Origin: an uncultured delta proteobacterium | GTDB taxonomy: Bacteria; Desulfobacterota; Desulfobulbia; Desulfobulbales; Desulfocapsaceae | DNA length: 64,000 nucleotides | NCBI GenBank assembly: GCA_903875445.1 | Contig: CAIQWD010000059.1 | Coordinates: 62,001 to 126,000, forward strand | Direction of reading: 5' to 3' | Position numbers and translations under genes: made by a program | Shown: in pieces, positions 4,344-42,423 of the stretch | How the letters are laid out: every line of letters begins with the position of its first letter | Numbering within the stretch: position 1 is the stretch's first letter | Notes under the pieces: generated by a model | Told to the model about the DNA's origin: nothing | What the model saw: the letters and a program-made list of their open reading frames with translations, nothing else | Database searches by the model: none

Positions 4344-4379
4344 CTGCTAAACAAACAATAGCGAAGCAGGCGCGCATAC

Positions 4380-4432
4380 AAACTGTGCCGGTTCAACGGA
4401 AAACCCCAATTTCCGTAGAGCCGGCACAGTTT
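4380..4432. terminator. Strong inverted repeat, probable bidirectional terminator
   Basis: AAACTGTGCCGG (4380-4391) pairs with CCGGCACAGTTT (4421-4432); the inner ACGGA/TCCGT (4396-4400/4412-4416) extends the stem across two mismatches. The loop is 11 nt. It sits between the convergent pirin gene (+) and acyltransferase gene (-), and A and T tracts flank the arms as expected for a terminator working both ways. Confidence 0.75.
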
Positions 4433-4458
4433 AAGATCAATTTGCATGCAAATGAGAC

Positions 4459-27177: not shown

Positions 27178-27207
27178 AGTTACATGGAGAGAATAGCCGG
27201 AGAGAAT

Positions 27208-29904
27208 ATGGTTGCCGTTTCAAGAAAGACCCCGGGTATTCGCCGAGTGTGTATTCTGCTTGTAGCGGCCCTATTGTTTTTTGCTCTCGGCAGTTCCAAT
27301 GCCCCGGCAGAGTCGGCGGACGAACCGCATATCCTTCTGCTCTACGCCTATGGCTATGGCGGCCGGGGAGTGGAACTGTTCAGCGAAGGGTTTTTCAAGG
27401 CGATTACCGAGGCCGGCTTCTCCGTTTCCAACGTCTATGCCGAATACCTCGATCTGCAACGCAACCGGGAGCTGCCGGACTATCGTCGGAATCTGCGGAA
27501 AACACTCGAAAATAAATACGGAAGGCGGCGGATCGATCTCATCGTCACTGTGCAACAGCCGGCTCTCGCCTTCCTGCTCACCGAGGGGCGGGATATCGCC
27601 CCCGATGCCGCGGTTATCACTCTCCAGCACCGACCGCTCCTTGAAGAGGAAAAGGCCGGCCGCCGCATCGTCGGCGAGGTCAATCAATTCGACATCAAGG
27701 GCACCCTGGAGAGAGCGATTGAACTGTTTCCAAAAACCCGACAGGTGCTGTTTGCCTCGGGCAGCAGCGAGGCCGACGTCACACTCGCCGAACAGGCTGC
27801 CGCCGTCGCCCTGCCGTATCGCGAGCACTTGGAATTCAAATACACCACCGGCATGACCCTTGATGAAATCCTTCTGCAGGTGGCTAACCTGCCGCCGCAG
27901 AGCATCATCATTTTCACCCAATACAACCGAGACAGTAAAGGCCGTGTGGCCCTGGCCTACGAGGCGGAAAAGATGATCATCAAGGCGGCCAACGCCCCGG
28001 TGTTCGGCTTTTACGACTACAATCTGAAAAACGGCGGGATCGGCGGCTCGGTCATCGCCGTCGAGGCCTCCGGCTCTCGGACCGGAAAGCTGGCAATCGA
28101 ACTTCTGCAAGGACTGCCTCCAACAGCTGCGGGAACCTTGCGAATGAACGAAAACATTCCAATGTTCGACTGGCAGCAGATCCGCCGCTTTGGCGGTGAC
28201 CCGAGCCGGCTGCCGGAGGGCACGATCTTTCTCAATCGCCCGCCCTCGGCCTGGCAGCAATACGGCGGAATCATCGTCGGCACCCTTATTTTCATACTCA
28301 GCCAGTCCCTACTGATCGTCGCCCTGCTCGTCAATATTCGCAGACGCAAACGGGTCGAGAGCGTGCTCAGCAAGAGCGAGGCCGAGTTTCACGCCATCTT
28401 CGAGGGGATGTTCGATTCGGTCATCTTTGCCGATTTAGATCGACATATCCGTCTGGTCAACACCGCCTTCAGCCAAATGTTCGGCTACAGGGCCGAGGAA
28501 GCAATCGGCCGAACCACCGAATTTCTCTACACCGACCCGGCCGATTACCTCGATCAGGGACGCCGTCGCTTTCACGGCGGACCGGAAATCGAGGGCGGGA
28601 GCTATGAACTGCAATACCGGCGAAAGGACGGTTCGCTGTTCTGGGCCGAATCGAACGGCACCAGGGTTGTCGGCCCAGGCGGGGCGGTGCTCGGCATTAT
28701 GAGCATGCATCGAGACATCACCGAAAAAAGGGCAAACGAGGAAGAAAAAATCAAATTCGAGGCACAACTCCATCAGCTCCAGAAAATGGAGGCCATCGGC
28801 CAGCTCGCCGGCGGGGTGGCCCATGATTTTAACAATATGCTCGGGGTGATCCTCGGTCACACCGAACTGGCCATGGACCAGATGGACCCGGCGTCGCCGC
28901 TTTTGGCCGACCTGGAGGAAATCCGTAAGGCTGCACTGCGCTCCGCCGATATTACCCGGCAATTGCTGGCCTTTGCCCGCAAACAGACGGTGCAGCCCCA
29001 GGTGCTCGACCTCAACGAGACCGTCGAAGGCATGCTGAAAATGCTGCGGCGGCTGATCGGCGAGGCCATCCAACTGGTCTGGTCGCCGGGAGCCGATCTG
29101 TGGCCGGTCAGGGTTGACCCGTCGCAGATCGATCAAATCCTCGCCAATCTCTGTGTCAATGCCCGGGATGCCATCACCGACATCGGTAAGATTACCGTCG
29201 AAACGGCAAATTGCGCCTTCGAGGTGGAAGACTGTAACGAAAACACCGTTCATTTCCCCGGAGAGTATGTCCGAATCGCCGTCAGCGACAACGGCTGTGG
29301 CATGGAAAAAGACCTGCTGCTCCACATCTTCGAGCCGTTTTTCACCACCAAGGGTGTCGGCGAGGGCACCGGCCTCGGTCTGGCCACGGTCTATGGCGCG
29401 GTGCAGCAAAACCACGGCTTCATCAACGCCTACAGCGAACCGGGACAAGGGACGACCTTCTCCATCTATCTGCCCCGCCATATGAGCACAGCTGCCCAAG
29501 TGCCGGTGCAGAGCCCACCGGAACCTGCCGCACGCGGCCATGAAACTATTCTGCTGGTGGAGGATGAGCCGGCGATCCTGGGAATGATCAGGGCGATCCT
29601 GCAAGGCCTGGGCTATGCGGTACTGCCGGCAAACAGTCCCGGCGAGGCCCTCGCCCTCGTTGAACAATTCGCCGGCGACATCCATCTGCTCCTGACCGAT
29701 GTGATCATGCCGGAAATGAACGGCCATACCCTGGCGGAACAGATACTTACGAGTCGGCCGACGATGAAGTGTCTGTTTATGTCCGGGTATCCGGCCAATG
29801 TCATTGCCTACCAAGGGGTGCTGGACGACGGGATCTGTTTCATCCATAAACCCTTTGCGAAAAAGGAGTTGGCCGCCAAGATTCGTCAGGTGCTGGCGGC
29901 TTGA
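27208..29904 (+). CDS. Hybrid sensor histidine kinase with ABC-type substrate-binding sensor domain
   Basis: 898 aa. Signal/TM near residues 10-32, then a periplasmic ABC_sub_bind-like domain ([20 protein letters not shown]..., [30 protein letters not shown]) to ~340, TM (~355-375), PAS ([19 protein letters not shown]), HisKA ([20 protein letters not shown]), HATPase ([31 protein letters not shown]) and a C-terminal receiver with [13 protein letters not shown]. The ATG at 27208 is preferred (GGAGAG upstream) over the one at 27184. It lies immediately after the CoA transferase gene; whether the sensed ligand relates to that enzyme is unknown. No output regulator is adjacent. Confidence 0.9.
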
Positions 29905-29997
29905 CTCTGCTCGGCTGTGACCTGAGCCATCGTCTCCTTCTACTTTTTTACCGTTTTGAAGGAATTGCTTATTCTTGGTGTAAGCCAACCAAATCAA

Positions 29998-30044
29998 TTG
30001 ACACATTGTGGTACATTATTTATCATATGAACAAATGATCATAT
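29998..30044 (+). promoter_or_regulatory. cadC promoter with ArsR/SmtB-type operator
   Basis: TTGACA (29998-30003), a 17-bp spacer and TATCAT (30021-30026) make a good sigma-70 promoter. Overlapping the -10, ATATGA (30025-30030) and TCATAT (30039-30044) form a 20-bp inverted repeat of the ArsR/SmtB type. Metal binding to the CadC product should release this site. Confidence 0.75.
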
Positions 30045-30059
30045 ATTGTTGGATACTGC

Positions 30060-30428
30060 ATGATACAGCTGCACAATGACACAGACGTTTGCGAAGAGTT
30101 ATGCGAACATGACCAGATTGTCTGCTTGGCAAAAGCCGAAATGCTTCTTGACGAAGATGCCAGACAGATTGCCGAAACGTTTAAAATTTTAGGAGATCCC
30201 ACGAGGATTAAGATTTTGCATGCCCTCTCCAAAAGAGAACTTTGCGTGTGTGACATTGCCGCCATCGTTGACATGGGGCAATCGGCAGTGTCGCACCAGC
30301 TCCGTTTGTTGCGTGGCGCGCGATTGGTTAAATACCGTAAAGAGGGCAAAATGGCCTGGTATTCTCTTGATGATACACATATCTCTCTGCTTCTGGCTCA
30401 GGGAATTGAACATATCAAACATGGGTAA
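30060..30428 (+). CDS. cadC: CadC-like metal-responsive ArsR family repressor
   Basis: 122 aa winged helix. ILGDPTRIKILHALSKRELCVCDIAAIVDMGQSAVSHQLRLLR has the alpha-3 ELCVCD metal site (CxC), and the N-terminus offers extra cysteines (CEELCEHD, IVCLAK), as in the alpha3N sensors CadC and CmtR, which respond to Cd, Pb or Zn. It sits 5 bp before the P-type ATPase gene and behind an ArsR-type operator, so autoregulation of a metal-efflux operon is the straightforward reading. Confidence 0.9.
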   Translation: MIQLHNDTDVCEELCEHDQIVCLAKAEMLLDEDARQIAETFKILGDPTRIKILHALSKRELCVCDIAAIVDMGQSAVSHQLRLLRGARLVKYRKEGKMAWYSLDDTHISLLLAQGIEHIKHG

Positions 30429-30433
30429 AAATA

Positions 30434-32530
30434 ATGCAGAAGTCGGTTTTTCTCATCTCCGGCATGGACTGTGGCGATTGCGCTGCAAAACTGGAAAAAA
30501 GACTTGCCGCGCTACCGGGTGTGAGGTCGGCGACTATTAACTTTGGTGCCGGCAAGTTGACGGTCGAACACAGCATTGCCGATTCCGCTCTCCTGCAAAC
30601 GGTGAAACAAGCCGGATATGGGGCAAGAAAGGATGAGGCCCTTCGCCGGCCCTTGCCGGAAACCGTCTGGTGGAAAAACGCCCGGACTCTGGCTACCATC
30701 GCCTCCGGAATACTGTTGGCAATTGCCACGCTCCTCGATTGGCTGGGGATGACGAGGGGCATCGTGATTTGCCTCTATGCTCTCACTGCCGTTACCGGTG
30801 GGTTTCACGCCGCAAAAAGCGGCCTGTATAGCCTTCGTTCCTTATCGCTCGACATGAATTTTCTGATGACTGCCGCCGTAATTGGCGCAGCGGCCATAGG
30901 CGAATGGAACGAGGGTGCCGCAGTCGCTTTTCTGTTTTCCGTCGGCAACACCTTGCAGGCGTACACCATGGATAAAACCCGCCGGTCCATCCGCTCCTTG
31001 ATGGAACTGGCTCCAGCGGTGGCTTTGGTGCGAAGGGACAACGAGGAAAATTGTTTGCCCGTTGAGGACATCGTGGTAGGCGATGTCCTCATAATCAAGC
31101 CCGGTGAACGGATCGCCATGGATGGAATTGTTCTTGCTGGGGTTTCGGCAGTCAATCAGGCCACTATTACCGGCGAATCGATTCCCGTTGAAAAAACAGC
31201 GGGCGACACGGTGTATGCCGGGACAGTGAACGAACACGGTGCCTTGGAAATCTCCGTAACGAAGAGTGCCGATAATTCGACTCTGGCCAGGATCTCCCAT
31301 CTCGTCGAGGAAGCCCAGGCGCAGAAGGCCCCCTCGCAGCAGTTTGTCGATGTCTTCGCCAAGTATTATACCCCACTCGTCCTCGTACTGGCCGCTTGCG
31401 TTATGGTTGTGCCTTGGCTGGTCTTCCAAAAGCCTTTCGCCCCGTGGTTTTATAATGGCTTGGTATTGCTTGTTATCTCCTGCCCTTGTGCACTGGTTAT
31501 TTCTACCCCGGTAGCTATCGTCTCCGCTATCGGCAATGCCTCCAGGCGCGGCGTTCTCATCAAGGGCGGCGCCTATTTGGAGGAGATGGGCTCTATCAAT
31601 GCCATCGCCTTTGATAAAACCGGAACCTTAACTGAAGGTCGCCCAGTGGTTACCGATATTGTGGTGACAAATGGCTATTCCGATACCGAATTGTTAGCAA
31701 TGGCTGCGAGCATCGAAAAATGGTCGGAGCATCCCTTAGCCCATGCTGTAGTTCTCAAGGCCAAAGGGCTTCAGTTAAAGGCTGCCATTCATTTCAAAGC
31801 CTTGGTGGGACGTGGCGCACAGGCGGAGATCGATGGACAAACGATATACATCGGCAATGTCCGGTTGTTTGAAGACCTCGGTTATGATTTGACCGCCCAC
31901 GAGCAAATACTGGCTGACCTTGAACAACAAGGCAAGACGGTTATGTTAATGGGTACAGGAAATAACATTCTCGGCATGATTGCGGTAGCCGATACCTTAC
32001 GGGACAACAGCCGGGAGGCAATACAAGCACTTCATCGAGCCGGCATGAAGCACATAGCCATGCTCACCGGCGACAACAACCGCGTAGCCGGCGCAATTGC
32101 CAAGAAACTTGATCTCGACACCTACTACAGTGACCTGTTGCCTGAGGACAAGGTAGCAACAGTCAAAAAAATTGCCGGTGACTACGGTAAGATAGTTATG
32201 GTCGGCGACGGTGTGAACGATGCCCCCGCCCTGGCGGCAGCGACCGTAGGCGTGGCCATGGGAGTAGCGGGATCGGACGTGGCGCTGGAAACGGCGGATG
32301 TGGCCTTAATGACCGATGACCTTGGCAAGCTGGCTTATCTCATCAAGCTGAGTCATAAGACCGTGGCTATCATTAAAGAAAATATCGTTTTCGCCATTTC
32401 GATTAAAGTTATCTTCCTGGTATTGCTTGTTCTCGGCATGGCGAATCTTTGGCTTGCCGTGTTGGCCGATATGGGCGCATCGCTTCTGGTAACAATGAAT
32501 GGCATGCGGCTGATGCGTCGTTTGCAGTGA
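30434..32530 (+). CDS. cadA: Heavy-metal (Cd/Zn/Pb) translocating P1B-type ATPase
   Basis: 698 aa. An N-terminal heavy-metal-associated domain with GMDCGDC, eight TMs, the CPC transport motif in ISCPCALVIS, phosphorylation site DKTGTLTEG, the SEHPLAHAV dipeptide and the hinge GDGVNDAPAL. The CPC motif and pairing with CadC indicate Zn/Cd/Pb export across the inner membrane. It is complete, with no sign of decay. Confidence 0.95.
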   Translation: MQKSVFLISGMDCGDCAAKLEKRLAALPGVRSATINFGAGKLTVEHSIADSALLQTVKQAGYGARKDEALRRPLPETVWWKNARTLATIASGILLAIATLLDWLGMTRGIVICLYALTAVTGGFHAAKSGLYSLRSLSLDMNFLMTAAVIGAAAIGEWNEGAAVAFLFSVGNTLQAYTMDKTRRSIRSLMELAPAVALVRRDNEENCLPVEDIVVGDVLIIKPGERIAMDGIVLAGVSAVNQATITGESIPVEKTAGDTVYAGTVNEHGALEISVTKSADNSTLARISHLVEEAQAQKAPSQQFVDVFAKYYTPLVLVLAACVMVVPWLVFQKPFAPWFYNGLVLLVISCPCALVISTPVAIVSAIGNASRRGVLIKGGAYLEEMGSINAIAFDKTGTLTEGRPVVTDIVVTNGYSDTELLAMAASIEKWSEHPLAHAVVLKAKGLQLKAAIHFKALVGRGAQAEIDGQTIYIGNVRLFEDLGYDLTAHEQILADLEQQGKTVMLMGTGNNILGMIAVADTLRDNSREAIQALHRAGMKHIAMLTGDNNRVAGAIAKKLDLDTYYSDLLPEDKVATVKKIAGDYGKIVMVGDGVNDAPALAAATVGVAMGVAGSDVALETADVALMTDDLGKLAYLIKLSHKTVAIIKENIVFAISIKVIFLVLLVLGMANLWLAVLADMGASLLVTMNGMRLMRRLQ

Positions 32531-32580
32531 GATTAAGTCTGCGCTTGCAGATGATTGTTTCCCTCCGCCCAGCAAGCATC

Positions 32581-32620
32581 TTGACAAACCGACAAAGTAG
32601 ATATAAACATTCATTTATAT
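32581..32620 (+). promoter_or_regulatory. Promoter and ArsR-type operator of the selenoprotein operon
   Basis: TTGACA at 32581-32586, with TATAAA at 32602-32607 (15-bp spacing; TAAACA at 17 bp is the alternative). ATATAAA (32601-32607) and TTTATAT (32614-32620) form a perfect 7-bp inverted repeat with a 6-bp centre, the same size class as the cadC operator but a different sequence. It lies 50 bp before the second ArsR gene, which probably represses itself and the genes behind it. Confidence 0.65.
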
Positions 32621-32670
32621 GTTGATGAGTGTTGTCCTCAGGATGTTTCATAATTACCCGCTGCTGCCCC

Positions 32671-33066
32671 ATGACGGAAAAACACCCCATCCCCGGCGAT
32701 CCGGAACACATTGTCAAGTCTTCGGCCGACCTTGCAGATGGCGATCAGATGCAGGATCAGTTGACTGACGATCATCTGCAACGCGCCGCCTTTCTCGCTA
32801 AAAGCCTGTCCGACGGCAATCGTCTGCGGATACTTCTACTGGTCGGCGATGGTCGGAAGTCGGTATCGGCCATCGTCGAGAAACTGGAGTTGTCGCAGCC
32901 GCTGGTATCGCATCATTTGAGGGAATTAAAAAGATCTCTCTTGGTCAAAGTAGAGCGTGAGGGACCGTTTATTTACTATGAATTGGCGGATGCGAGAATT
33001 CTGGGTGTCGTCCGAACCTTGAGCAAGGTGGCGACAGACCTGTTATCCGTGAGAACCACTTTTTAA
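32671..33066 (+). CDS. ArsR family regulator without cysteines
   Basis: 131 aa from the ATG at 32671. The winged helix (KSLSDGNRLRILLLVGDGRKSVSAIVEKLELSQPLVSHHLRELKRSLLVKVEREGPFIYYELA) is clear, but no cysteine is present anywhere and the alpha-3 CxC site is absent. It therefore probably senses something other than a thiophilic metal through cysteines, or responds indirectly. The first ~40 residues are unlike those of CadC. It is the first gene of an apparent operon with three UGA-containing genes (23 bp to the next start). Confidence 0.85.
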   Translation: MTEKHPIPGDPEHIVKSSADLADGDQMQDQLTDDHLQRAAFLAKSLSDGNRLRILLLVGDGRKSVSAIVEKLELSQPLVSHHLRELKRSLLVKVEREGPFIYYELADARILGVVRTLSKVATDLLSVRTTF

Positions 33067-33089
33067 ACAATCGGAGGCACAACATCCGT

Positions 33090-33542
33090 ATGGACGAATT
33101 CTTTAAAATCATTGCCCGCATGACCCCGGAAGAGGCCCTGTCGCAAATCACCATGGTCCTGGAAAGGCTTTTGGCGGATCTCGACCACGACGGCCGCGAG
33201 CGTTTTCTGATGAATCTCATCGGCCAGTCGGAAAGCGACAAAGTTGCCGGCCTCGTCCATTTGTGACTAGCCGAGTGCATGGGCGAAGGTGTCGACCCAA
33301 CACAGATGTGCCGGAGCCTGGTGGACAAGGTTGTTCAGTCGGAACAACTCCGGGCTATCGCCGATCCCGATCTGCTGGTGTTGTTCGAGGACTGGCTGGA
33401 GGAGCTGGAAGCGGAAGTAGTGGCGCTTCTTAAAACCCACGGCCCTTTGGACAGCAAGGGTTTAGCCGACAAACTCGGCCTTTCCGTCAGGGGCGCGACC
33501 TTTCTTCTGTCAAAACTGGAAAGAACTGGAAATGGAGTTTAG
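33090..33542 (+). CDS. Small selenoprotein candidate (U59), function unknown
   Basis: 150 aa if the in-frame TGA at 33264-33266 is read as selenocysteine. CGGAGG stands 12 nt before the ATG at 33090. The frame before and after the TGA is coherent: ...SDKVAGLVHL-U-LAECMGEGVDPTQMC..., giving a UxxxC pair with C63. The N-terminal part is helical; the C-terminus (LLKTHGPLDSKGLADKLGLSVRGATFLLSKLERTG) looks like a winged helix. A SECIS-like hairpin follows the TGA. Without Sec insertion the product would be a 58-residue fragment. I do not recognise the family. It ends with TAG, 10 bp before the next start. Confidence 0.75.
33281..33298 (+). promoter_or_regulatory. SECIS-like hairpin after TGA 33264-33266
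   Basis: GGGCGA (33281-33286) pairs with TCGACCC (33292-33298, one bulged A) around the 5-nt loop AGGTG. The GGU lies 22-24 nt after the TGA. In the E. coli fdhF SECIS the apical loop also contains AGGU at nearly the same distance (established). Confidence 0.65.
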
Positions 33543-33552
33543 GAGACCTCCG

Positions 33553-35313
33553 ATGAAAAAATGGACATCGATATTTCCGGCGCTCGCGGCCATGGCGCTC
33601 ACCGTCGTTTTTGTCTGGTATATAGAGCGTCCCGCAGTACCCAAACAGGCCACCTGGGATGACGTCGTGGCCGAGGCCAAGGCCGGCGGTTACCGCATCA
33701 TCTCAACGACAGAGCTTGCCGACCGATATCGCACGAGCCCTACCGCCGTTACCATGGTGGATACCCGCCAGGACTGGGAATTCCGTACCGGCCATATCGA
33801 AGGCGCGGTCAATTTTCCCATGGAACCAACTGCCTGGGCACGCTGGCGCAGGGCGGGTGACCTGGAAAAATTCCTGGGCGCGGACAAAGATCACCTGCTG
33901 GTTTTTTACTGAGCTGGCCTGACATGAGTCCGCAGCGACTCGGCGGCCCGGGTGGCCGTCACCCTTGGTTATAAAAACGTTTACCGCGACCCTTATGGAT
34001 TTCCCAAGTGGCAGGAACAGGGCCTGCCCATACGGAGCATCCCGGCCGGCCTCACATCATCCGCCGCAACACCTGCCGGACCACAGGACGACCCTTCCTT
34101 TAAAGGCTGGGGTATGCTCTGGACGCTGCTGGGTATTTTCGCCGGAGGATTGGCCCTCAATCTCACCCCCTGCGTCTACCCGATGATTCCCATCACCGTG
34201 TCGTTTTTCGGCGGTCGCTCCGCCGGCGACAAACCCGGACAGCTGGGGCTGGTCCTGCATGGCCTATGTTATCTGCTGGGTCTCGCCTTGACCAATTCGA
34301 CCCTGGGCGTCGTTGCCGCCTTAACCGGCGGTCTGATGGGCTCGCTGCTGCAAAGTCCGCTGGTCCTTGCCCTGGTTGCCGGCGTTCTGGTGCTGTTCGC
34401 CACCAGCCTCTTCGGCTTTTGGGAACTGCGGTTGCCCGGTGGGATGAGCCAAATGGCCGGTAAATCCTATACCGGCTATTTCGGCAGTTTCTTTATGGGG
34501 CTGACTCTCGGGATCGTCGCCGCCCCCTGTATCGGCCCCTTCGTTCTCGGCCTGCTCACCTGGGTTGCCGGCATGGGTAATCCCTGGTTCGGATTTTTGA
34601 TCTTTTTCGTCCTCAGTCTCGGGCTTGGCCTGCCCCTTTTCGTCCTCGCTCTTTTTTCCGGTCAGCTGCAGAGACTGCCTCGGGCCGGCGGCTGGATGCT
34701 CTGGGTGCGTAAACTCATGGGCTGGGTACTGGTGGGCATGGCGATCCACTTCCTTCGCCCGGTACTCCCCGATTTCCTCAAGATACTCCTGCCGGTTACC
34801 GTCGCCCTGACTGCCGGCCTGCACCTTGGGTGGTTTGATAAAAACGAGGCGAACTTTCGCGCCTTTTCCTGGCTGAAAGCCCTTACCGGTACAGCCTGCC
34901 TGGTCATGGCGACTCTGTGGATTACCTCTGCGGTCATGCAGGGGCCGGGGATCGTCTGGCATCCCTACTCGGAACAAATCCTCCGGGAGGCCAAGACTCA
35001 GGGCAAACCGCTGATCATCGATTTCTACGCCGACTGGTGCACGCCATGCCGGGAACTGGAAGAGGTGACCTTTCATCAGCCGGATGTCGTCGGGTTGGCG
35101 GGAAAAAACTTTACCATGGTTAAGGTCGATGTCACCAAGGGTGGCAATCCGTACCATGAAGAACTCCTGAAAAATTATGGCGTTAAAGGAGTGCCGACAC
35201 TTGTTTTTATCGATGCGGAAGGGCAGGAACGAACAGACCTCCGCCTCGTCGATTATCTGCCGGCCGAGCAGTTTTTGCAGCGCATGCGCAGCATTACCCC
35301 ACCGGGCAAGTGA
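33553..35313 (+). CDS. Rhodanese-DsbD-thioredoxin fusion, selenoprotein candidate (U120, U125)
   Basis: 586 aa when two in-frame TGA codons (33910-33912 and 33925-33927) are read as Sec. N-terminal anchor (~7-24), then an extracytoplasmic rhodanese domain (VTMVDTRQDWEFRTGHIEGAVNFP) whose active loop reads HLLVFY-U-AGLT-U-VRSDSAA, exactly where rhodaneses have YCGGPxC. Next comes a DsbD-type domain of about eight TMs with its redox cysteines in LTPCVYP (C207) and VAAPCIGPF (C326), then a C-terminal thioredoxin domain with YADWCTPC (C496, C499). Probable role: passing reducing power from the cytoplasm across the membrane to a selenocysteine rhodanese handling persulfide, or to another thiol target. 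AGGAGA precedes the ATG. Read without Sec it would appear as two broken genes. Confidence 0.85.
33944..33958 (+). promoter_or_regulatory. SECIS-like hairpin after TGA 33925-33927
   Basis: CGGCC (33944-33948) pairs with GGCCG (33954-33958) around the loop CGGGT; its GGU is 24-26 nt after the second TGA. A second stem, GAGTC-CGCAGC-GACTC (33926-33941), lies nearer the first TGA but its loop lacks GU, so how the first Sec is specified is not obvious. Confidence 0.55.
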
Positions 35314-35339
35314 CCACAAAACCGAAGAAGGAGACAACC

Positions 35340-35654
35340 ATGCTGAAAGTCCGCTTTTTTCTCAACGAACCAAACGGCAAGCCGTGAAAGCATTTCAAAC
35401 AGATTATGCCCAGGTTGGGCGAAAAATATAAGGTTGCAATCGAGATCACGGCAAAACCAAAATCCGCCTACGAAACCGACGAGTACTTCGCCCTTGATCT
35501 GCCGGTAGCACCGGCGATCATGGTCGGCGACGAGATCGTCGTTGAGGGCAGTGATGTGTCCGAGCACGAGTTGGAGGTCTGTATCTGCCGTAAGCTTGGT
35601 CTGCCAGAACCGGAGAAAAAAGGCCTGATGGACCGTCTTTTCGGCAAATCCTGA
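35340..35654 (+). CDS. Thioredoxin-like small selenoprotein candidate (U16)
   Basis: 104 aa if TGA 35385-35387 is Sec: MLKVRFFLNEPNGKP-U-KHFKQIMPRLG, then KVAIEITAKP and DLPVAPAIMVGDEIVVEG, which has the cis-Pro strand of thioredoxin-fold proteins. U16 sits at the end of the first strand, where thioredoxin-fold proteins keep the active-site Cys. C81 and C83 near the C-terminus could act as resolving residues. GAAGGAGA lies 8 nt before the ATG, which is 26 bp after the DsbD fusion. Truncation at TGA would leave 15 residues. Likely a partner or substrate of the upstream fusion protein (inference). Confidence 0.78.
35408..35420 (+). promoter_or_regulatory. SECIS-like hairpin after TGA 35385-35387
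   Basis: GCCC (35408-35411) and GGGC (35417-35420) close the loop AGGTT. The GGU is 26-28 nt after the TGA and the loop starts AGGU as in E. coli fdhF. Confidence 0.65.
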
Positions 35655-35673
35655 CCGAAAAAAATGACAATGA

Positions 35674-35710
35674 CATTTTGACCCATCCTCCTGCAGACAG
35701 GGTCAAAATG
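35674..35710. terminator. Inverted repeat, bidirectional terminator
   Basis: CATTTTGACCC (35674-35684) and GGGTCAAAATG (35700-35710) form a perfect 11-bp stem with a 15-nt loop between the convergent selenoprotein operon and nrfA. Confidence 0.75.
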
Positions 35711-35735
35711 CCATATGGTCCACGGGCAATAAAAA

Positions 35736-37235
35736 TCAGTTGTAGGAGGTTTTCAGCTTCATATCCTTGCGGGACTCGGGATCGTAAATGCCCTTCGCCT
35801 CACCCTGCTTGATCCATTCCTGCCGCAGGCCGTTGAGGAAGGTTTTCTTTTCCTCAACCAACTTGCCGTAATCCATACCGACGAGCGCCTGGGCCTTTTC
35901 CTTGGTGGAGAAATCCGGAGCGACATAATCGACGGCGTTGTGTTTGGCGAGGACGATGCGGATCTTCAACCGGGCATCCTGCCCCAGATTGATGGACCCG
36001 CCCAGGGTCCGCAGGATTTCCTCTGGGGCGTGAAAGAAGGCGCCGTGGCCAGCAACTGCATAATCCCAGCGCCATTGGCCATGGCGAATATCCTGCAGAG
36101 CCGCTTTCATTTCCTCCTCCGTCGCTCCCGCTTCCCAGGCCTTGGCAGCCTCCAGGTGCGCCTTGGCCAAAACATCACTTGCTATCTTGGCCAATTCGTT
36201 TTTCCTTGCCAGTTTTTTGTCGATTGTTGCCCGGAATTCTTTCTCGGTGCCTTTATGACAGTTCAGACAGGTGTTGGCAATATTGTCGAGGGGACTGCCG
36301 ACTTTGTGGCTGGAATACTTAACCCCACCTTCACGCACATAGGGCATATGACAATCGGCGCAGGCCAGGCCGTTACGGCTGTGCACCCCGGTGACGAAGG
36401 TCTCGTAATCCGGATGCTGGGCTTTGAGCATCGGGGTCTTGCTCAGTTGATGGGTCCAGTCGGAGAAGTTAAGTTCGTCGTAATAAGCCTCCATTTTCTC
36501 TGCGGCAAAGCCTTTATTCCAGGGGAAGGTCACGACCATGGCGGTTTTCTTTGTGCCTTTGTCGTCCCATTCGGTCTTCTTGAAATAATACTCGGAATGA
36601 CACTGGGCGCAGACGAGAGAGCGCATGTCCTGATGGGTGGCATCGGCGGTTTTCAGGCTGCCCTCGGCGTCAAGGCCGCGCTTCAGGTATTCGCGGGTTA
36701 AGGTCAGTTTCATGGTCTGGTTGTCATGGCAATCGCCGCAGCCGATGGTATTGACGACTTCATCGCCGTACTTGGCCCATTTACCGGTAAAGAATTCCAG
36801 TTCGCCATCGCGCTTCATCAGTCGCGGCACGTCCGGGGACTTGCAGGTCCAGCAGGCGGTCGGCAGGGGCCCGGTTATTTTATCGACCGGCGCGCCGGTA
36901 CGCAGGGTATTGATGTTGTCCTCCAGTGCGTAATAATGGCCGCGCGGTTTATTGTAATCCTTGGAAAACGGATAGCCGGCCCACATGACCACCAGGGCCG
37001 GGTCCTGCTTCAAGACATCGGTGATATCCTCGCTCTTTCTCGTCTGCATATAGGTGTCATACTGGCGAGGATAATTCTTACCCCATTCGGAGGCGCGAGT
37101 CTCATTGTCTTTGATGCCCGGAACCGCGTTAATAGCCTGTTGTTCGGCTTTATTCTCTTTGATGGAGATCGTCAATAACGCCATCGGCACCAGGACGACC
37201 ACACAAAGAGCAACAACAATCATCGATTTTTTCAT
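35736..37235 (-). CDS. nrfA: Cytochrome c nitrite reductase, catalytic subunit (ammonia-forming)
   Basis: 499 aa, pentaheme periplasmic enzyme reducing nitrite to ammonium with six electrons. Signal peptide (MKKSMIVVALCVVVLVPMAL), then the diagnostic active-site heme motif CWTCK and four CxxCH motifs (CGDCH, CAQCH, CADCH, CLNCH). The GVHSRNGLACADCHMP segment and the late His (AVAGHGAFFHAPEE) are as in NrfA. The start at 37235 is favoured because GGAGG lies 6 nt upstream; an ATG two codons earlier touches the ribosome site. It is downstream of nrfH with a 23-bp gap. Confidence 0.96.
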   Translation of the reverse strand: MKKSMIVVALCVVVLVPMALLTISIKENKAEQQAINAVPGIKDNETRASEWGKNYPRQYDTYMQTRKSEDITDVLKQDPALVVMWAGYPFSKDYNKPRGHYYALEDNINTLRTGAPVDKITGPLPTACWTCKSPDVPRLMKRDGELEFFTGKWAKYGDEVVNTIGCGDCHDNQTMKLTLTREYLKRGLDAEGSLKTADATHQDMRSLVCAQCHSEYYFKKTEWDDKGTKKTAMVVTFPWNKGFAAEKMEAYYDELNFSDWTHQLSKTPMLKAQHPDYETFVTGVHSRNGLACADCHMPYVREGGVKYSSHKVGSPLDNIANTCLNCHKGTEKEFRATIDKKLARKNELAKIASDVLAKAHLEAAKAWEAGATEEEMKAALQDIRHGQWRWDYAVAGHGAFFHAPEEILRTLGGSINLGQDARLKIRIVLAKHNAVDYVAPDFSTKEKAQALVGMDYGKLVEEKKTFLNGLRQEWIKQGEAKGIYDPESRKDMKLKTSYN

Positions 37236-37258
37236 ACACATCCTCCCGATTGAGATCC

Positions 37259-37771
37259 TTAAAGTACCTTATTGATAAAATTATTCTGGGTCGCCATGAG
37301 ATTGCGCATTGTCCCGTGAGGCACATCCCGGTGGCACTGCCAGCACGGCCGCCCCATCTGCACACGGCCATCCTCGACTTTGTCGTAAAGAGCGCTATTG
37401 GTCAGCATCTGGGAAACCGTCTCCCGGTGACAGGAGATACAATTGTCCTGGATTCTCCGAGCTGCATCGTTACTTATGCGAAGATTGGGGCCGTAGGTCT
37501 TAAGAGTCATGGCCAGCGAATGGTGATAGCCGTCACGGGCCTTGGCCAGCATCTTATTGACAAAGGAATCGCGGGGCAGATGACAATCAACGCAGGTCGC
37601 CCGGTTGCGATGCGAGCTGTGCTGCCAGGTGTCGTAGTGGGTGTTCATGGTATGGCAGGTGATGCATACCTTCGGGTCACTGGAAAGGTAAGACAACATC
37701 TTCGATTCATGGACCAGATTGGCAAACACTGCGACAACTGCTACGACCAAAAATATGGCTAGATATTTCAT
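37259..37771 (-). CDS. nrfH: Cytochrome c nitrite reductase, membrane tetraheme subunit
   Basis: 170 aa, NapC/NirT family. One N-terminal TM helix (YLAIFLVVAVVAVFANLV), then four heme motifs CITCH, CVDCH, CISCH and CWQCH. It oxidises menaquinol at the membrane and passes electrons to NrfA, with which it forms a stable complex in sulfate reducers. First gene of nrfHA; its sigma-54 promoter lies ~250 bp upstream. As the only NapC-type quinol dehydrogenase gene here, it might also serve the nap system. Confidence 0.95.
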   Translation of the reverse strand: MKYLAIFLVVAVVAVFANLVHESKMLSYLSSDPKVCITCHTMNTHYDTWQHSSHRNRATCVDCHLPRDSFVNKMLAKARDGYHHSLAMTLKTYGPNLRISNDAARRIQDNCISCHRETVSQMLTNSALYDKVEDGRVQMGRPCWQCHRDVPHGTMRNLMATQNNFINKVL

Positions 37772-37872
37772 AGTTCAACCTGATTAGTATCCACCAATGG
37801 ACAGGTTTGCCGCCGGATGACGGCGCTTTCTCAACTATCCCGCAAATGCAATCTCACCCACCTGAAGTCGGC

Positions 37873-37900
37873 GTAAATCCTACAAAATTGCAGGATTTAC
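37873..37900 (-). promoter_or_regulatory. Leader hairpin of nrfHA mRNA
   Basis: GTAAATCCT (37873-37881) and AGGATTTAC (37892-37900) form a perfect 9-bp stem with a 10-nt loop inside the predicted nrfHA leader. It could be a protein-binding palindrome or an RNA stability or attenuation structure; it lacks a U tract in the nrf direction. Confidence 0.5.
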
Positions 37901-38022
37901 TTTTCTATTCCTTACGACTAGCTCTTTCAAGCCTGTCTTAAGGATAGATGATCTCTGAAGCTATCCTCATTGAGGTGCTTGGGCTGCCCTGAATTACAGG
38001 GCCTCGACCTTTCCCCCCATAG

Positions 38023-38038
38023 AGCAAATTGCATACCA
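38023..38038 (-). promoter_or_regulatory. Sigma-54 promoter of nrfHA
   Basis: On the minus strand TGGTATG-CAAT-TTGCT matches the -24/-12 consensus TGGCACG-N4-TTGCA in its invariant GG and GC elements with the correct 10-nt spacing. The start point should be near 38011. Confidence 0.75.
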
Positions 38039-38087
38039 GAAAATAAGTCCTGCAATTTCAATGGAAAAATTAATTTTCCCAAAGGAA

Positions 38088-38140
38088 CCGCTACCATTTG
38101 GTAACACACTCCGATCGAATCCGTTACCAAATGGTAGCGG
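38088..38140 (-). promoter_or_regulatory. Paired activator sites (UAS) upstream of nrfHA
   Basis: GCTACC-ATTT-GGTAAC (38090-38105) and its inverse GTTACC-AAAT-GGTAGC (38123-38138) lie 33 bp apart; with flanking bases they form an 18-bp perfect inverted repeat. The nearer site begins 52 bp beyond the -24 element. The same motif, at the same 52-bp distance, occurs at the nap promoter. The NtrC-family regulator encoded at 44721-46058 is the likely ligand. Confidence 0.75.
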
Positions 38141-38225
38141 TGGGATGTCGGCGAGAAGCATGGGAAAACGACAAGGAGAACGTCATCCTCAGAACACGCA
38201 GAAACACTCCCGAAGGTCCTGGATT

Positions 38226-39104
38226 TCATTGTTCATTCCCTCTTTTGACTGCAGTTTTTTCCAGCTGCCAGCGAAAAGAAAGCATCTTCTGCCGGCACGA
38301 ATCGACGCACTCCCCGCAATTCCAGCAATAGGCGGATGTTCCTTCGCCCTGCTCCGGTAAAAGCCCCAGAGGGCAGGCGTTGCCGCAAGCACCGCAGGAG
38401 GTGCATCCATCTTTGTCGAGGTGGATCCGCAGCCTGCGATGTCTGCCAAGAAACGCCAGCATCCCGCCAAGCGGACAGAAGGTGCGGCAGAAAAACCGGC
38501 GAGTCAGCAGTTCAAGCAGCATGATGATGACAAGCAGCAGCCCTTCAAGGGCCAAATTCTTAAAAAACACCAGCATCATCATCTCCCGGCCAACGAGGCC
38601 CGGCGGGGAAAGAAAGACAAAGAGCGGTGCACCCAGTACCATGCTGAGGCCTATCTCACCGATGAGGACAAACCACAAAACTCTCTTGGCAAAGAGCAAT
38701 CGATTAGCAAGATGACGCTGCCCGGAAAGATGCCGGCGAAGGCCATCGACCAATTCGAGGAGAAAGGACATCGGGCAGACCCAGGAGCAGAACACCCGAC
38801 CGAGAACCAAGGCGATGCCGACCGGAATGACCATGCCGATCAGCGAGGGCGTATACAAAGTTTTACTGATGAGGAGGCTCTCAAGCCCTTCAAGAGGCGA
38901 GACAAACCACAAGTTACCGATACTGAACGACTGATACCAACCCTGAAGAAAACTGCTGTGCAGATAATAGTTCAACAGAGGGTTAAGAACGATGAGAAGA
39001 AACGCTGCCGCAAGTACCCTCCGCCGCCGGCCGAGGAAACGCGGAAGTCGGGTTGTTTTCCCACCGGCTGCAGGCAACGGGCCCGGTTCCTCCTGCCGCG
39101 TCAT
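38226..39104 (-). CDS. napH: NapH, membrane quinol-linked ferredoxin-type protein
   Basis: 292 aa, start at ATG 39104 overlapping the napG stop (ATGA). Four TM helices, cytoplasmic CSWVCP and CRTFCPLG motifs between them, and C-terminal ferredoxin clusters CTSCGACGNACP and CWNCGECVDSC. With NapG it forms a quinol dehydrogenase that feeds the periplasmic nitrate reductase when NapC is absent or optional. Last gene of napMADGH. Confidence 0.9.
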   Translation of the reverse strand: MTRQEEPGPLPAAGGKTTRLPRFLGRRRRVLAAAFLLIVLNPLLNYYLHSSFLQGWYQSFSIGNLWFVSPLEGLESLLISKTLYTPSLIGMVIPVGIALVLGRVFCSWVCPMSFLLELVDGLRRHLSGQRHLANRLLFAKRVLWFVLIGEIGLSMVLGAPLFVFLSPPGLVGREMMMLVFFKNLALEGLLLVIIMLLELLTRRFFCRTFCPLGGMLAFLGRHRRLRIHLDKDGCTSCGACGNACPLGLLPEQGEGTSAYCWNCGECVDSCRQKMLSFRWQLEKTAVKRGNEQ

Positions 39105-39697
39105 CCCACCGCCTTCTCGACTGCCTGCAACGGCAGGATATTGATGGCCTTGCTGCCGTCGGCACCTGTCACCGGGCAGGTATGGGTGCAGATACCGCAG
39201 CCGGTGCACAGAGCTTCGTTGACTATCGGCCGCAACTGATCGAGGCGGATGGCCCGATCGGCAAAAGGGCATTTATCGTAGCAGGTGCGGCATAAGGTCG
39301 TGCCAATCCAGGTCGCACATTGAAAGCGGTCGACAATTGCCAGCCCCATCCTCGTTTCGCTCTGCCGGATCCGTCTGAGGCAGCCGGTGGGACAGACATC
39401 GACACACTTCATACACAGGTAGCAGGGGATCTTCGTCACCTCGATAAGCGGTGTTCCGGCATGCAACCCATGGCGGATATCAAGCATGCGGATGGAGCGG
39501 TAGGGGCATACCTCCACACACCTGCCGCAGCGAATGCATTTCGCCGGAAAGATTTCCTCCACCACCGCCCCGGGTGGACGCAGCAGATTTCTGGCCACCG
39601 GCGTAGCGCTAAGCCCTGCGGCAACAGAAACCGGCAGAAGCGACAAGCAGCACGCTGCCCCCGCCTGCCGGAGAAAATCCCGCCGCCCCAAGGTCAT
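39101..39697 (-). CDS. napG: NapG, periplasmic ferredoxin-type protein
   Basis: 198 aa. Tat signal (GRRDFLRQAGAACCLSLL), then four [4Fe-4S] ligand sets: CIRCGRCVEVCP, CYLCMKCVDVCP, CRTCYDKCP and CTGCGICTHTCP. It passes electrons from NapH towards the nitrate reductase. Its ATG overlaps the end of napD and its stop overlaps napH, so translation is coupled. Confidence 0.92.
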   Translation of the reverse strand: MTLGRRDFLRQAGAACCLSLLPVSVAAGLSATPVARNLLRPPGAVVEEIFPAKCIRCGRCVEVCPYRSIRMLDIRHGLHAGTPLIEVTKIPCYLCMKCVDVCPTGCLRRIRQSETRMGLAIVDRFQCATWIGTTLCRTCYDKCPFADRAIRLDQLRPIVNEALCTGCGICTHTCPVTGADGSKAINILPLQAVEKAVG

Positions 39698-39993
39698 TAC
39701 TTACAATCCCCACGAAAACCAAGCGGCCGCGGGGTTACTTCTCCCTCCGCCACCGGTTGCGCCTCGTCTTCCGTGTTGAGATAGGTCAAACCGACGCTCG
39801 CGATCCGCGTATCTTTGTTCAGCCGGTCGATGAGTTCCTGCATGTCCTCGGAGGTGGCGGTCTCAAGAACCGCGACGATATTGCCCTCCGCGTCGCTGCC
39901 GTATACCTCGACCCCGGCAAGGGCTGCGAGATAGCACACCGCCTCCTTCCTCTCCCTGGGCTGACTCCTGATAACAACGCCGCTTATCGGCAT
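39697..39993 (-). CDS. napD: NapD, NapA maturation chaperone
   Basis: 98 aa. ISGVVIRSQPRERKEAVCYLAALAGVEVYGSD and GNIVAVLETATSEDMQELIDRL..RIASVGLTYL give the ferredoxin-like fold of NapD, which binds the Tat signal of NapA until the molybdenum cofactor is inserted. Lies 42 bp after napA. Confidence 0.92.
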   Translation of the reverse strand: MPISGVVIRSQPRERKEAVCYLAALAGVEVYGSDAEGNIVAVLETATSEDMQELIDRLNKDTRIASVGLTYLNTEDEAQPVAEGEVTPRPLGFRGDCK

Positions 39994-40035
39994 GGCAACT
40001 CCTATCCTGCAATATTTTCCATTTCTTAACGGCCC

Positions 40036-42423
40036 CTAAACAAGATAGGGCGTAAGTGCCGTCGGCCCGGACAGCCTTTTCACCTGCACGGCGCAGATTT
40101 TGAACTCCGGTTCCTTCGAGCCGGGATCGACGGCATCCTTCGTCACCTTGTTGATCATCCGGTCGCCATGCTGGTCGTGCCAGTAGGCGAAGACCATGCC
40201 CTCCACCGGCCCCGCATAGACCTTGGCAGGCATGATATTGACGCCACGCCGCGATTTGATTTCCACCATATCGCCGGGTTTAATCCCCAAACGCTCGGCA
40301 TCCTTCGGGTTGACCTCGACGAAGGAATAAGGATTGGCCCGCAGCAGTTCGGGGACCCTGCCGGTCATCGACATGGTGTGCCAGTGGTCGATGATCCTGC
40401 CGGTGGAAAGATAGAACGGGTATTCGCCATCGGGAACCTCTTCCGGACTGGCCTGATCGTGGAGCCAAATCCACAGCAGACGGTCGGCATGCGCCGGTCC
40501 GTAAAACTGATAGGGCAGGTCGTTCTTCGATTCCGTCGTCGCCATGGGATCGCGGCCCTTGACAAACTTCTTTACCGTGCCGCCGGTGAGGGCAAATTCC
40601 GTTGTCGGCGCCGGCCACTGCACGCCGTCGGCCATCTTCTCCAACACTTCGTAGGTGGCACCGCGCAGATCGTTGTCCCGGCCGGCAGTGAGTTTCTGGG
40701 TGTACTCGTCCCAGATCGCCTTCGGCAGGGCGTAGCCTTCCTCCAATCCCTCAAAGGGCTTGATGCACTGGGCGATAACCGGGTCGCCCAGTTTTTCCGC
40801 AAGCTTTTTCGCCCACTCGCGAATCATCCACACCTCGGGCTTGGCCTCGCCGGGGGAATTGATCGCCTTTTTGGTGAGCTGCGACCGCCTCTCGGTGCAG
40901 CCATAAACTCCGGTCTTCTCGAAATGGAAGGAGGCCGGCAGTACCAGATTGGCTTTCTGCGTCGTCAAGGTAGGAAAGATGTCACTGCAGACGATGAAGA
41001 CATCCTCCCGGTCCATCCCCTGATTATAGAGGTTGCAATTGGGCAGGCTCTGCACCGGGCTGGTGCAGTTGATCCACAAAGCCTTGACCTTGCCTTCGTT
41101 CACCGCCGAAAACATGGCCATGGTATGCAGTCCCGGCTGCTCCGGAATACGGCCGGCGGGTACCCCCCAAGCCGCCTCCACCTGGCGGCGCATCGCCTCC
41201 TTTTCCACCGGGCGATGGCCAGGCAGAATGTGGCACAGCCCGCCTCCCTCGCGCACCCCGCCGCAGGCATTGGGCTGCCCGGTGAGGGACAGGCTGTCGG
41301 CCCCGTCCTTCATTAACTGGCCAGTGAGGATATGCAGGTTATGCACCAGATTATTGGCCCACACCCCTTGCTTGCGCTGATTGAGGCCCATGCACCACAA
41401 ACTGACGGTGCCCTTCGAGGTGGCGAACCACCGGGCCGCCTTGCGGATATCGTCAGGTTTGAAGGAACCGCCGCAGGTCTTTGCCACCTCCTCCGGCGTG
41501 TAGCCGGCGAGCTGGGTCTGCAGGTCGGCGAAGGTTGCCGGCTCCTCCTTACCCTTTTTGAAGGTGGCGTAGTTCTTGATAAATTCTTCATCATAGAGCT
41601 TTTCTTCGATGATGACCTGGGCCATGGCATTAAGGAGGGAGAGGTCGGTACCGGGTTTGAACTGCAGATGCAGATCGGCGATCCGCGAAGTCTGCGACAG
41701 GCGGGGATCGACATTAATGACCTTCACCGTCTCGGGATTATCGAGCTTGCGGCGCATGATCCGCCGAAAAATAACCGGATGGGCCTCGGCGGTATTGGAG
41801 CCGATTATGAAGAAACAATGGGCCTTTTCGATGTCCGAATAGCCGCCGATGGGCTCGTCCGCCCCGAAAGAACTCAGGTAGCCGCCCACGGCGCTGGCCA
41901 TGCACAGCCGTGGATTCCCCTCGACGTTATTGGATTGCAGGCCGCCGCGCATGATCTTCTGGAAGAAATAGGTCTCCTCGGTCAGCGCCTGGCCCGAGCC
42001 GTAATAGGCCACCGCCGCACCGCCCCCGGCCTTGTGGGCCTCGGCAAATTTTTCGGCGGCAAGATCGAGAGCCTTGTCCCAGCTGATTTCCTGAAACTTG
42101 TCGCTCTTTTTGGCGCGATACAGGGGCGTGGTCAACCGGTCGGGATGGCGCATGCACTTCCAGAAATGCATACCCTTCATGCAGACGTAACCAAAATTGG
42201 TACGGGATTCGGGCACCCCGCGTAAGCCCATGGGTATCCCGTCCTTGACCCCGAGTTCGACACGGCAGCCGACGCCGCATAAACGGCAGCTGCCCCGGTG
42301 CCAGTTGACCCCTTCATCGGCCCGAGCAATGTTTAAGCTACTGATGGGAAGTTGCATACTTACATAGGAAGCGGCTGACAGGGCTGCCGCCATTTTGATA
42401 AAATCGCGTCGTGTTTGGCTCAT
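40036..42423 (-). CDS. napA: Periplasmic nitrate reductase, catalytic subunit
   Basis: 795 aa. Tat signal (TRRDFIKMAAALSAASYVS), the [4Fe-4S] ligands CRLCGVGCRVELGVKDG ... YVCMKG, and the Mo-coordinating Cys in NPRLCMASAVGGYLSSFG (Cys, not Sec). The size and motifs fit the monomeric NapA of Desulfovibrio desulfuricans better than the longer enterobacterial NapA. It reduces nitrate to nitrite using bis-MGD. No napB is present; NapM upstream is the probable electron donor. GGAGAAAA precedes the ATG. Confidence 0.95.
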   Translation of the reverse strand: MSQTRRDFIKMAAALSAASYVSMQLPISSLNIARADEGVNWHRGSCRLCGVGCRVELGVKDGIPMGLRGVPESRTNFGYVCMKGMHFWKCMRHPDRLTTPLYRAKKSDKFQEISWDKALDLAAEKFAEAHKAGGGAAVAYYGSGQALTEETYFFQKIMRGGLQSNNVEGNPRLCMASAVGGYLSSFGADEPIGGYSDIEKAHCFFIIGSNTAEAHPVIFRRIMRRKLDNPETVKVINVDPRLSQTSRIADLHLQFKPGTDLSLLNAMAQVIIEEKLYDEEFIKNYATFKKGKEEPATFADLQTQLAGYTPEEVAKTCGGSFKPDDIRKAARWFATSKGTVSLWCMGLNQRKQGVWANNLVHNLHILTGQLMKDGADSLSLTGQPNACGGVREGGGLCHILPGHRPVEKEAMRRQVEAAWGVPAGRIPEQPGLHTMAMFSAVNEGKVKALWINCTSPVQSLPNCNLYNQGMDREDVFIVCSDIFPTLTTQKANLVLPASFHFEKTGVYGCTERRSQLTKKAINSPGEAKPEVWMIREWAKKLAEKLGDPVIAQCIKPFEGLEEGYALPKAIWDEYTQKLTAGRDNDLRGATYEVLEKMADGVQWPAPTTEFALTGGTVKKFVKGRDPMATTESKNDLPYQFYGPAHADRLLWIWLHDQASPEEVPDGEYPFYLSTGRIIDHWHTMSMTGRVPELLRANPYSFVEVNPKDAERLGIKPGDMVEIKSRRGVNIMPAKVYAGPVEGMVFAYWHDQHGDRMINKVTKDAVDPGSKEPEFKICAVQVKRLSGPTALTPYLV

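Follow-up and report, generated by a model that had tools for sequence, protein, structure and literature searches.

The three selenoprotein operon (Tso) is already known and named. It is described in a 2026 review (PMC13188914) with references 63 and 64, and TsoA, TsoB, TsoC, TsoX, and TsoY are listed there under reference 64, Haft & Tolstoy 2025 (mSystems), cited as the source of the naming; no function is stated for Tso in the available part of the review. This review was the sole relevant paper found, the primary papers lying outside our reach, and it yielded no published functional account of the system. The Sec-assisted organometallic (SAO) system, in which Sec stands for selenocysteine, is likewise a multi-selenoprotein operon according to the same partly available source; however, no SAO model was among the matches listed for the four Tso proteins (for TsoB, the best 25). 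In the present study, we analyzed a window of 64,000 nucleotides from an uncultured delta proteobacterium (assembly GCA_903875445.1, contig CAIQWD010000059.1, positions 62,001 to 126,000), "the window" being the whole of this stretch, and judged from its protein matches it almost certainly carries a Tso operon, tsoR-tsoA-tsoB-tsoC. The operon consists of four consecutive plus-strand genes at 32671-35654, separated by gaps of 23, 10, and 26 nt.

32671-33066, plus strand: tsoR, ArsR/SmtB-fold regulator, 131 aa (NF045707, 158.3 bits, cut-off 115)
33090-33542, plus strand: tsoA, LULAxC selenoprotein, 150 aa (NF045695, 214.3 bits, cut-off 170)
33553-35313, plus strand: tsoB, N-terminal hydrophobic helix, rhodanese (UAGLTU), DsbD_TM, and thioredoxin (CTPC), 586 aa (NF045694, 963.8 bits, cut-off 805)
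35340-35654, plus strand: tsoC, NEPxGxxU selenoprotein, probably thioredoxin-like, 104 aa (NF045708, 149.3 bits, cut-off 45)

The NCBIfam models for TsoR, TsoA, TsoB, and TsoC match exactly these four proteins, each above its curated cut-off, and everything by which we recognized a Tso operon was found, namely, the four models, the Sec motifs, and three contiguous selenoprotein genes after tsoR. An original prediction, made from the DNA letters and their open reading frames, had proposed three adjacent selenoprotein genes behind an ArsR-type regulator, and the four models bear this out. It also named the parts correctly as a UxxxC protein, a rhodanese-DsbD-thioredoxin membrane protein, and a thioredoxin-fold protein, the last with the proviso that TsoC is only probably thioredoxin-like. 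The combination, which it had thought undescribed as a system, was already covered by the NCBIfam models and by the naming that the accessible text of PMC13188914 attributes to Haft & Tolstoy 2025. Overall, its observation was confirmed and its interpretation was partly supported. The window shares the motifs of the known operon (LULAxC, UxxxxU, GxxU) and the gene order of homologous loci; however, TsoX was not found in this genome, and the window has no VTT gene, whereas one lies downstream in 14/21 tsoB loci. The host genome (G000; 4.9 Mb, 95% complete) is close to Desulfoprunum and contains dsrA, and the organism is probably sulfate- or sulfite-reducing; the closest TsoC relatives are from Desulfobulbaceae and include Desulfoprunum benzoelyticum (85% identity), of which strain DSM 28570 (L018) is a culturable Tso carrier.

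The selenoprotein assignment depends on four in-frame TGA codons.

33264-33266, plus strand: codon for U59 of TsoA, TGA in 29/29 aligned homologues
33910-33912, plus strand: codon for U120 of TsoB (presumed rhodanese catalytic position), TGA in 20/20 full-length homologues
33925-33927, plus strand: codon for U125 of TsoB, TGA in 20/20 full-length homologues
35385-35387, plus strand: codon for U16 of TsoC, TGA in 34/34 aligned homologues

As far as sequence comparison goes, conservation across homologues shows these TGAs (at 33264, 33910, 33925, and 35385) to be Sec codons with conserved hairpins after them. The protein is coherent on either side of each, as originally predicted, and reading TGA as Sec gives U59 in TsoA, U120 and U125 in TsoB, and U16 in TsoC. 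The opposing view, that they are ordinary stops in broken or split genes, draws on the use of TGA as a stop in most contexts and on the terminal codons of tsoB and tsoC here, which are also TGA, so that a single transcript would use this codon in both senses. However, in a search of 247 genomes of the phylum, in which stops of every kind were translated through and counted, the only inner stop in any Tso match above cut-off was TGA (TsoA, 20/20 matches in 19 genomes; TsoB, 12/12 with two TGAs each in 12 genomes; TsoC, 22/22 in 16 genomes). Terminal stops, unlike the Sec positions, are mixed (TGA in 6/29 tsoA, 9/20 tsoB, and 16/35 tsoC). Substitutions downstream of the TGAs fell mainly at third codon positions in the three relatives compared, and synonymous sites there are frozen. 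These observations rule out the ordinary-stop reading, to which we assign a negligible probability. Below the cut-offs, TsoC had a single match, without TGA; TsoA had six, three with TGA and three without; and TsoB had 26, of which two, pieces of tsoB, had two TGAs and 24 had none, the latter being later pieces or DsbD relatives short of the rhodanese part, a kind of match that E. coli gives as well.

The counts per gene come from our own alignments of 29 TsoA, 20 TsoB, and 34 TsoC. Matches below 50 bits in phmmer were not used, and L084, a duplicate of L027, and a false second TsoR match in L070 were dropped. TsoB sequences shorter than 500 aa were excluded from the 20, including that of L081, in which a frame change divides tsoB and the Sec region of which was kept among the 21 sequences of the tsoB DNA alignment. 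Truncated TsoC of L028 and L029 stand outside the 34 and inside a set of 36, while the 29 TsoA exclude the divergent relatives of L095, L096, and L098 (U59 region missing or rebuilt, Met-rich) and of L099 and L100 (U59 and C63 kept, C74 not). Open frames in these alignments end at TAA or TAG, and either codon at a Sec position would have cut a homologue in two; this blind spot is covered by the 247-genome search, which read through all stops and, in line with the original prediction, found TGA as the only inner stop in every match above cut-off.

The Sec machinery, which had been suggested as a check, is present in G000: a tRNA-Sec (72 bits, cut-off 47, with weaker matches in all 14 control genomes too), SelA (627.5 bits, cut-off 268), SelB (349.9 bits, cut-off 242), and two SelD above the curated cut-off, each with an in-frame TGA. 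A second suggested check, Cys at the TGA positions of homologues, produced one distant candidate, a weak TsoC relative in G004 (NNPMGVRC, 29 bits, under cut-off), in which no selA was found; otherwise there was none, which comes close to the outcome that the prediction had named as contrary to it. The evidence from coding and from hairpins is independent of Cys homologues, so their near-absence leaves the case for Sec standing. The retention of Sec at four positions, for which Cys forms were almost never seen, is relevant to the question of why Sec is kept at all.

The hairpins, which resemble bacterial Sec insertion sequences (bSECIS), are as follows.

33280-33299, plus strand: tsoA hairpin, loop AGGUG, 20 nt after the TGA, with a bulged A
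33925-33942, plus strand: first tsoB hairpin, loop CGCAGC without GGU, 18 nt after the U120 TGA, with the second TGA in its stem
33944-33958, plus strand: second tsoB hairpin, loop CGGGU, 21 nt after the U125 TGA and 36 nt after the U120 TGA
35408-35420, plus strand: tsoC hairpin, loop AGGUU or GGU, 24 or 25 nt after the TGA

A GGU hairpin had been expected 22-28 nt after each TGA. GGU is present in three of the four hairpins, at distances of 20, 21/36, and 24/25 nt, and a GGU hairpin is ruled out for the first tsoB TGA, which has its own hairpin with loop CGCAGC. Synonymous conservation peaks just after the TGAs, with a mean excess identity of 0.313 inside this region versus 0.052 outside it in tsoA (9 codons), 0.308 versus 0.059 in tsoB (15 codons; the best of 383 sliding windows), and 0.274 versus 0.068 in tsoC (only 4 codons); the observed values were reached in 9, 0, and 141 of 10000 permutations, respectively. 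Covariation is clear in tsoA and weaker in tsoB and tsoC. Among 26 distinct sequences of the tsoA hairpin, 97.3% of cells are paired, and neither this value nor the covariation score was reached by any of 500 shuffles, although related sequences may beat shuffles without real structure. Two-sided changes occur at 3/7 pairs (reached by 7/500 shuffles), and one covarying pair joins Gly GGC with Asp GAC and Asp GAC with GAT (G-C in 14, A-U in 11, and G-U in 1 of the 26). In the first tsoB hairpin, 95% of cells are paired with no two-sided changes, and the constraint is synonymous (GTC in 19/21, GAC in 21/21); in the second, 100% are paired, and three sequences have A-U in place of G-C at one pair. 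The two-sided pair count of both tsoB hairpins jointly was reached by 199/500 shuffles, i.e., covariation is weak. For tsoC (35 distinct sequences), 94.3% of cells are paired (0/500 shuffles) and two pairs show two-sided change (9/500), while structures slid by 1-3 columns also give one or two, and RNAalifold retained only three pairs, at the top. Folding after the TGAs, another suggested check, is weak when single sequences are used by themselves: the single-sequence bSECIS model (hairpin at 16-37 nt) fits 4/4 Sec TGAs and 0/2 terminal TGAs, but also 26/120 control codons, and the best single-sequence hairpins for tsoA (loop CGACCCA) and U125 (loop CGGC) differ from the conserved ones.

Regarding TsoB, the alignment and domain matches show it to be a DsbD-type protein in which the N-terminal domain is replaced by a rhodanese with two Sec. 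Exactly six Cys/Sec residues are invariant in the 20 sequences: U120, U125, C207, C326, C496, and C499. DsbD works with three pairs of this kind: one in the membrane, one in a C-terminal CxxC, and an acceptor pair at the N-terminus. TsoB has the same transmembrane Cys pair (C207, C326) and C-terminal CxxC thioredoxin (C496, C499) as the DsbD/CcdA family in 20/20 sequences, and its acceptor pair would be the rhodanese loop UAGLTU (U120/U125), in which U120 occupies what we take to be the catalytic position of the rhodanese. The Pfam domains above cut-off are rhodanese (PF00581, 46.9 versus 22.2 bits), DsbD_TM, and thioredoxin, and matches in the PDB and among folds are to cDsbD, CcdA, and rhodaneses. 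Against the DsbD model NF001419, TsoB scores 255.6 bits, below the cut-off of 330, and the match begins only at profile position 163 of 574. A hydrophobic N-terminal segment (residues 3-25) fits a periplasmic location of the rhodanese. The AlphaFold model of TsoB is confident mainly in the rhodanese part.

The six invariant residues favor a transmembrane selenium relay, which we regard as reasonably probable. Cytosolic NAD(P)H and thioredoxin reductase would supply electrons to small Sec-containing carriers of the thioredoxin fold (TsoC here, TsoX elsewhere); these electrons would cross the membrane via C207/C326 of TsoB and reach its periplasmic C496/C499, which would reduce the U120/U125 pair. 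This pair may accept sulfane sulfur (persulfide, polysulfide, or thiosulfate-type), or selenium in an analogous form, from a substrate in the periplasm and release it reduced; as the substrate, sulfane sulfur is our tentative choice, held at somewhat short of an even chance. The original prediction had placed a selenium relay in the cell envelope, and the relay itself is favored here, while only TsoB looks like an envelope protein because TsoA and TsoC have no signal peptide by eye. Repair of envelope disulfides or peroxides, as in other DsbD-type systems and with Sec for speed, would account for the DsbD core of TsoB; however, such a function would not lead one to expect sulfur-handling neighbors or the substitution of a rhodanese for the N-terminal DsbD domain, which makes it improbable.

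The predicted supply of electrons to TsoB can be compared with fusions of the thioredoxin reductase/AhpF type. In L100, TsoX and a complete thioredoxin reductase are encoded in one frame (3514-4923; TIGR01292, 383.3 versus 343.45 bits), and this fusion resembles NAD(P)H-to-thioredoxin-fold modules, whereas the operon in the window has no such reductase gene. A thioredoxin reductase is encoded immediately upstream of tsoR in L022. TsoC itself probably has a thioredoxin-like fold. In L019, L020, L022, L065, and L079-L082, the tsoC cluster contains a second paralogue of tsoC, which has a TGA of its own (NDPxGxTU in several).

TsoR passes the ArsR/SmtB winged helix-turn-helix model NF033788 (72 versus 55 bits), and its predicted operator lies upstream of tsoR.

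32601-32620, plus strand: predicted TsoR operator, inverted repeat ATATAAA-N6-TTTATAT

The operator overlaps a promoter-like sequence, TTGACA (32581-32586) and TATAAA (32602-32607) with an N15 spacer. A promoter scan did not call TTGACA-N15-TATAAA, the candidate for the shared promoter region of the original prediction. The shared terminator did not hold up: the convergent genes flank an inverted repeat (35675-35684/35700-35709, at least 10 bp) with its T-run on the minus strand, on the nrfA side, and a terminator scan after tsoC made no call on either strand, leaving a plus-strand terminator unsupported. Across 28 tsoR upstream regions, the operator pattern, which allows G at one position of the second arm, is exact in 15, has one mismatch in four, two in one, three in one, and at least five in seven; each of the 15 exact matches was reached by 0/200 single-base shuffles. 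The upstream region of L063 was too short to be included, and the two regions of L023 share one operator. The exact operator occurs once in the 4.9-Mb genome, and sites with at most one mismatch number three per strand versus two and three for a reversed-pattern control; a wider TsoR regulon in this genome was thus rejected. Since the operator overlaps the promoter-like region and occurs exactly once, TsoR is suggested to be a dedicated autoregulator, which would repress the operon at this site.

An ArsR fold raises the possibility of defense against soft metals or metalloids, in which Sec binds or reduces Hg, As, or similar elements under a metal sensor of this type, and an ArsR-type gene (by eye) and a ZntA-type ATPase directly upstream in this genome are in keeping with it. 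However, among 29 TsoR sequences only H81 (28/29) and H82 (29/29), a pair in the likely recognition helix, are conserved in at least half, and no Cys is; the Cys/His ligands of ArsR/SmtB metalloregulators were not found and the usual ArsR metal sites are therefore absent, which rules out TsoR as a canonical metal sensor. CmtR and BigR, ArsR-family proteins among the non-Tso NCBIfam matches of TsoR, share its helix-turn-helix fold, but TsoR is far below their cut-offs (45.2 versus 150 and 42.7 versus 155 bits) and has no conserved sensor Cys. Moreover, the ZntA-type ATPase has an ArsR-type gene of its own, and mere binding needs no DsbD-type electron input. We consider metal defense unlikely.

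TsoA may instead be the redox- or chalcogen-sensing partner of TsoR, a role proposed because TsoR has no conserved Cys and is always found beside TsoA, which combines Sec with a winged helix. U59 and C63 are present in 29/29 aligned homologues, in agreement with the UxxxC motif of the original prediction; the C-terminal winged helix that follows the helical Sec part (AlphaFold model, predicted local distance difference test [pLDDT] 71) had been missed. Structure predictions used 11 sequences each, from the window and related loci. The winged helix is the only part resembling known folds, with matches spanning 41-49 columns, and neither it nor the overall TsoA fold had a match at E ≤0.001; a MarR match was below its cut-off. 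If TsoA is a Sec-bearing sensor, this would be, to our knowledge, an unusual use of Sec in regulation. Divergent tsoR-tsoA-like pairs with a Met-rich TsoA-like protein were observed in L095, L096, and L098, the last with a VTT gene between the pair and a TGA at ERUMQMC. A TsoR-TsoA fusion in L096 was rejected: it forms one frame only when a TGA is read through, and the most plausible reading of this TGA is as the normal stop of tsoR.

In the loci compared, tsoR-tsoA is the constant core beside varying genes predicted to handle sulfur. tsoR lies upstream of tsoA on the same strand in 29/29 tsoA copies (28 after duplicate removal plus the one in the window), while tsoB and tsoC vary. Among tsoR-tsoA loci without tsoB or tsoC on the stretch examined, a DsrE neighbor is present in L070 and L073 (Sec form) and in L086 (Cys form); the divergent L100 also has one. 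TauE/SafE permeases adjoin the pair in L074 and L086, TsoX in L070 and L074, and a rhodanese in L072, and TsoY (SLAC1 fold) lies downstream in L070 and upstream in L071. The TauE assignments in L020, L023, and L024 come from clustering with L086 and not from Pfam, and the sequence of L087 ends 121 nt after tsoA. dsrA is present in 21/23 genomes with TsoA, TsoB, or TsoC above cut-off versus 101/224 others (Fisher, 1.3e-5), the two Tso genomes without it being only 62% and 67% complete. The neighbors and the dsrA association point to sulfur chemistry.

The strongest rival to sulfur chemistry is selenium assimilation or detoxification, with a relay that handles selenite, selenotrisulfides, or perselenide and feeds or protects SelD. 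SelD adjoins tsoC in L023, together with a TauE-like gene; a VTT (TVP38/DedA-type) gene, of the DedA superfamily, lies downstream on the same strand in 14 of the 21 tsoB loci with at least 1 kb of downstream sequence; and L072 has a weak ExtH-like rhodanese, below the cut-off of that model. In the available parts of the respective papers, a DedA protein was linked to selenite uptake (PMC8679861) and rhodanese was discussed as a selenium carrier (PMC8538045). However, SelD is a single neighbor, the DedA protein of PMC8679861 may be of a different VTT subfamily, and the DsrE, TauE, and SLAC1 neighbors and the dsrA association favor sulfur first; we rate selenium handling as fairly unlikely.

DsrE-family proteins with an in-frame TGA were observed close behind tsoR-tsoA at L070:7676-7984, L073:7269-7577, and L100:3183-3548, each above the Pfam DsrE cut-off; no NCBIfam model matched these three at the thresholds used. 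At L023:2403-6948, two divergent tsoR-tsoA units share one common operator, with tsoC and a selD with an in-frame TGA on one side, and behind the divergent tsoR-tsoA pair of L099 come a DUF5714 protein that has a TGA in frame (MbdU, 364 versus 600 bits, below cut-off) and TsoX.

Taken as a whole, a Tso relay acting on periplasmic sulfane sulfur or selenium under TsoR/TsoA control is the best explanation, with the balance tipped only slightly in its favor. Several points weigh against it. The function of Tso is predicted from sequence and genomic context only. The fold of TsoC is not established (Pfam Thioredoxin_3, 13.0 versus 24.8 bits, E 0.11, under cut-off; ribosomal protein L9 at the top of a PDB profile search with E 0.014, and thioredoxin-fold entries at E 0.34 and 0.98 only), and its 34 sequences have no invariant second thiol. 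The TsoB model has low quality across the membrane part (mean pLDDT 63.7, 11 sequences), and we therefore infer the topology. The predicted operator is missing from 7/28 tsoR upstream regions, the dsrA association is uncorrected for phylogeny (23 genomes, 13 families), and no selA was found in the Tso-positive G005, G042, and G078, which belong to one genus and are 62-79% complete. A bolder form would make Tso a complete selenol relay, with a Sec-containing thioredoxin-fold carrier, a DsbD-type conduit ending in a di-selenocysteine rhodanese, and a two-protein sensor, TsoR and TsoA, at a dedicated palindrome, the TsoR-TsoA pair serving elsewhere as a portable control cassette for DsrE, TauE/SafE, SLAC1, or rhodanese effectors; this remains speculative and is rather doubtful in full. 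Through the six invariant residues, the operator, the sulfur-handling neighbors, and the TsoX-reductase fusion, three adjacent selenoproteins become a testable electron chain.

As for the surroundings of the operon, an Rfam search of 26000-42000 gave no match, and no tRNA genes were found in the 64-kb window. Directly upstream of tsoR, at 30060-32530, a second ArsR-type gene (30060-30425, by eye) is followed by the gene for the ZntA-type heavy-metal P-type ATPase (TIGR01525, 612.6 bits, cut-off 346). On the minus strand at 35736-37771, convergent with the tso operon, NrfA (655 bits, cut-off 595) is encoded with a small NrfH-like cytochrome gene (by eye), and a NapA-like gene (by eye) is located at 40039-42423.

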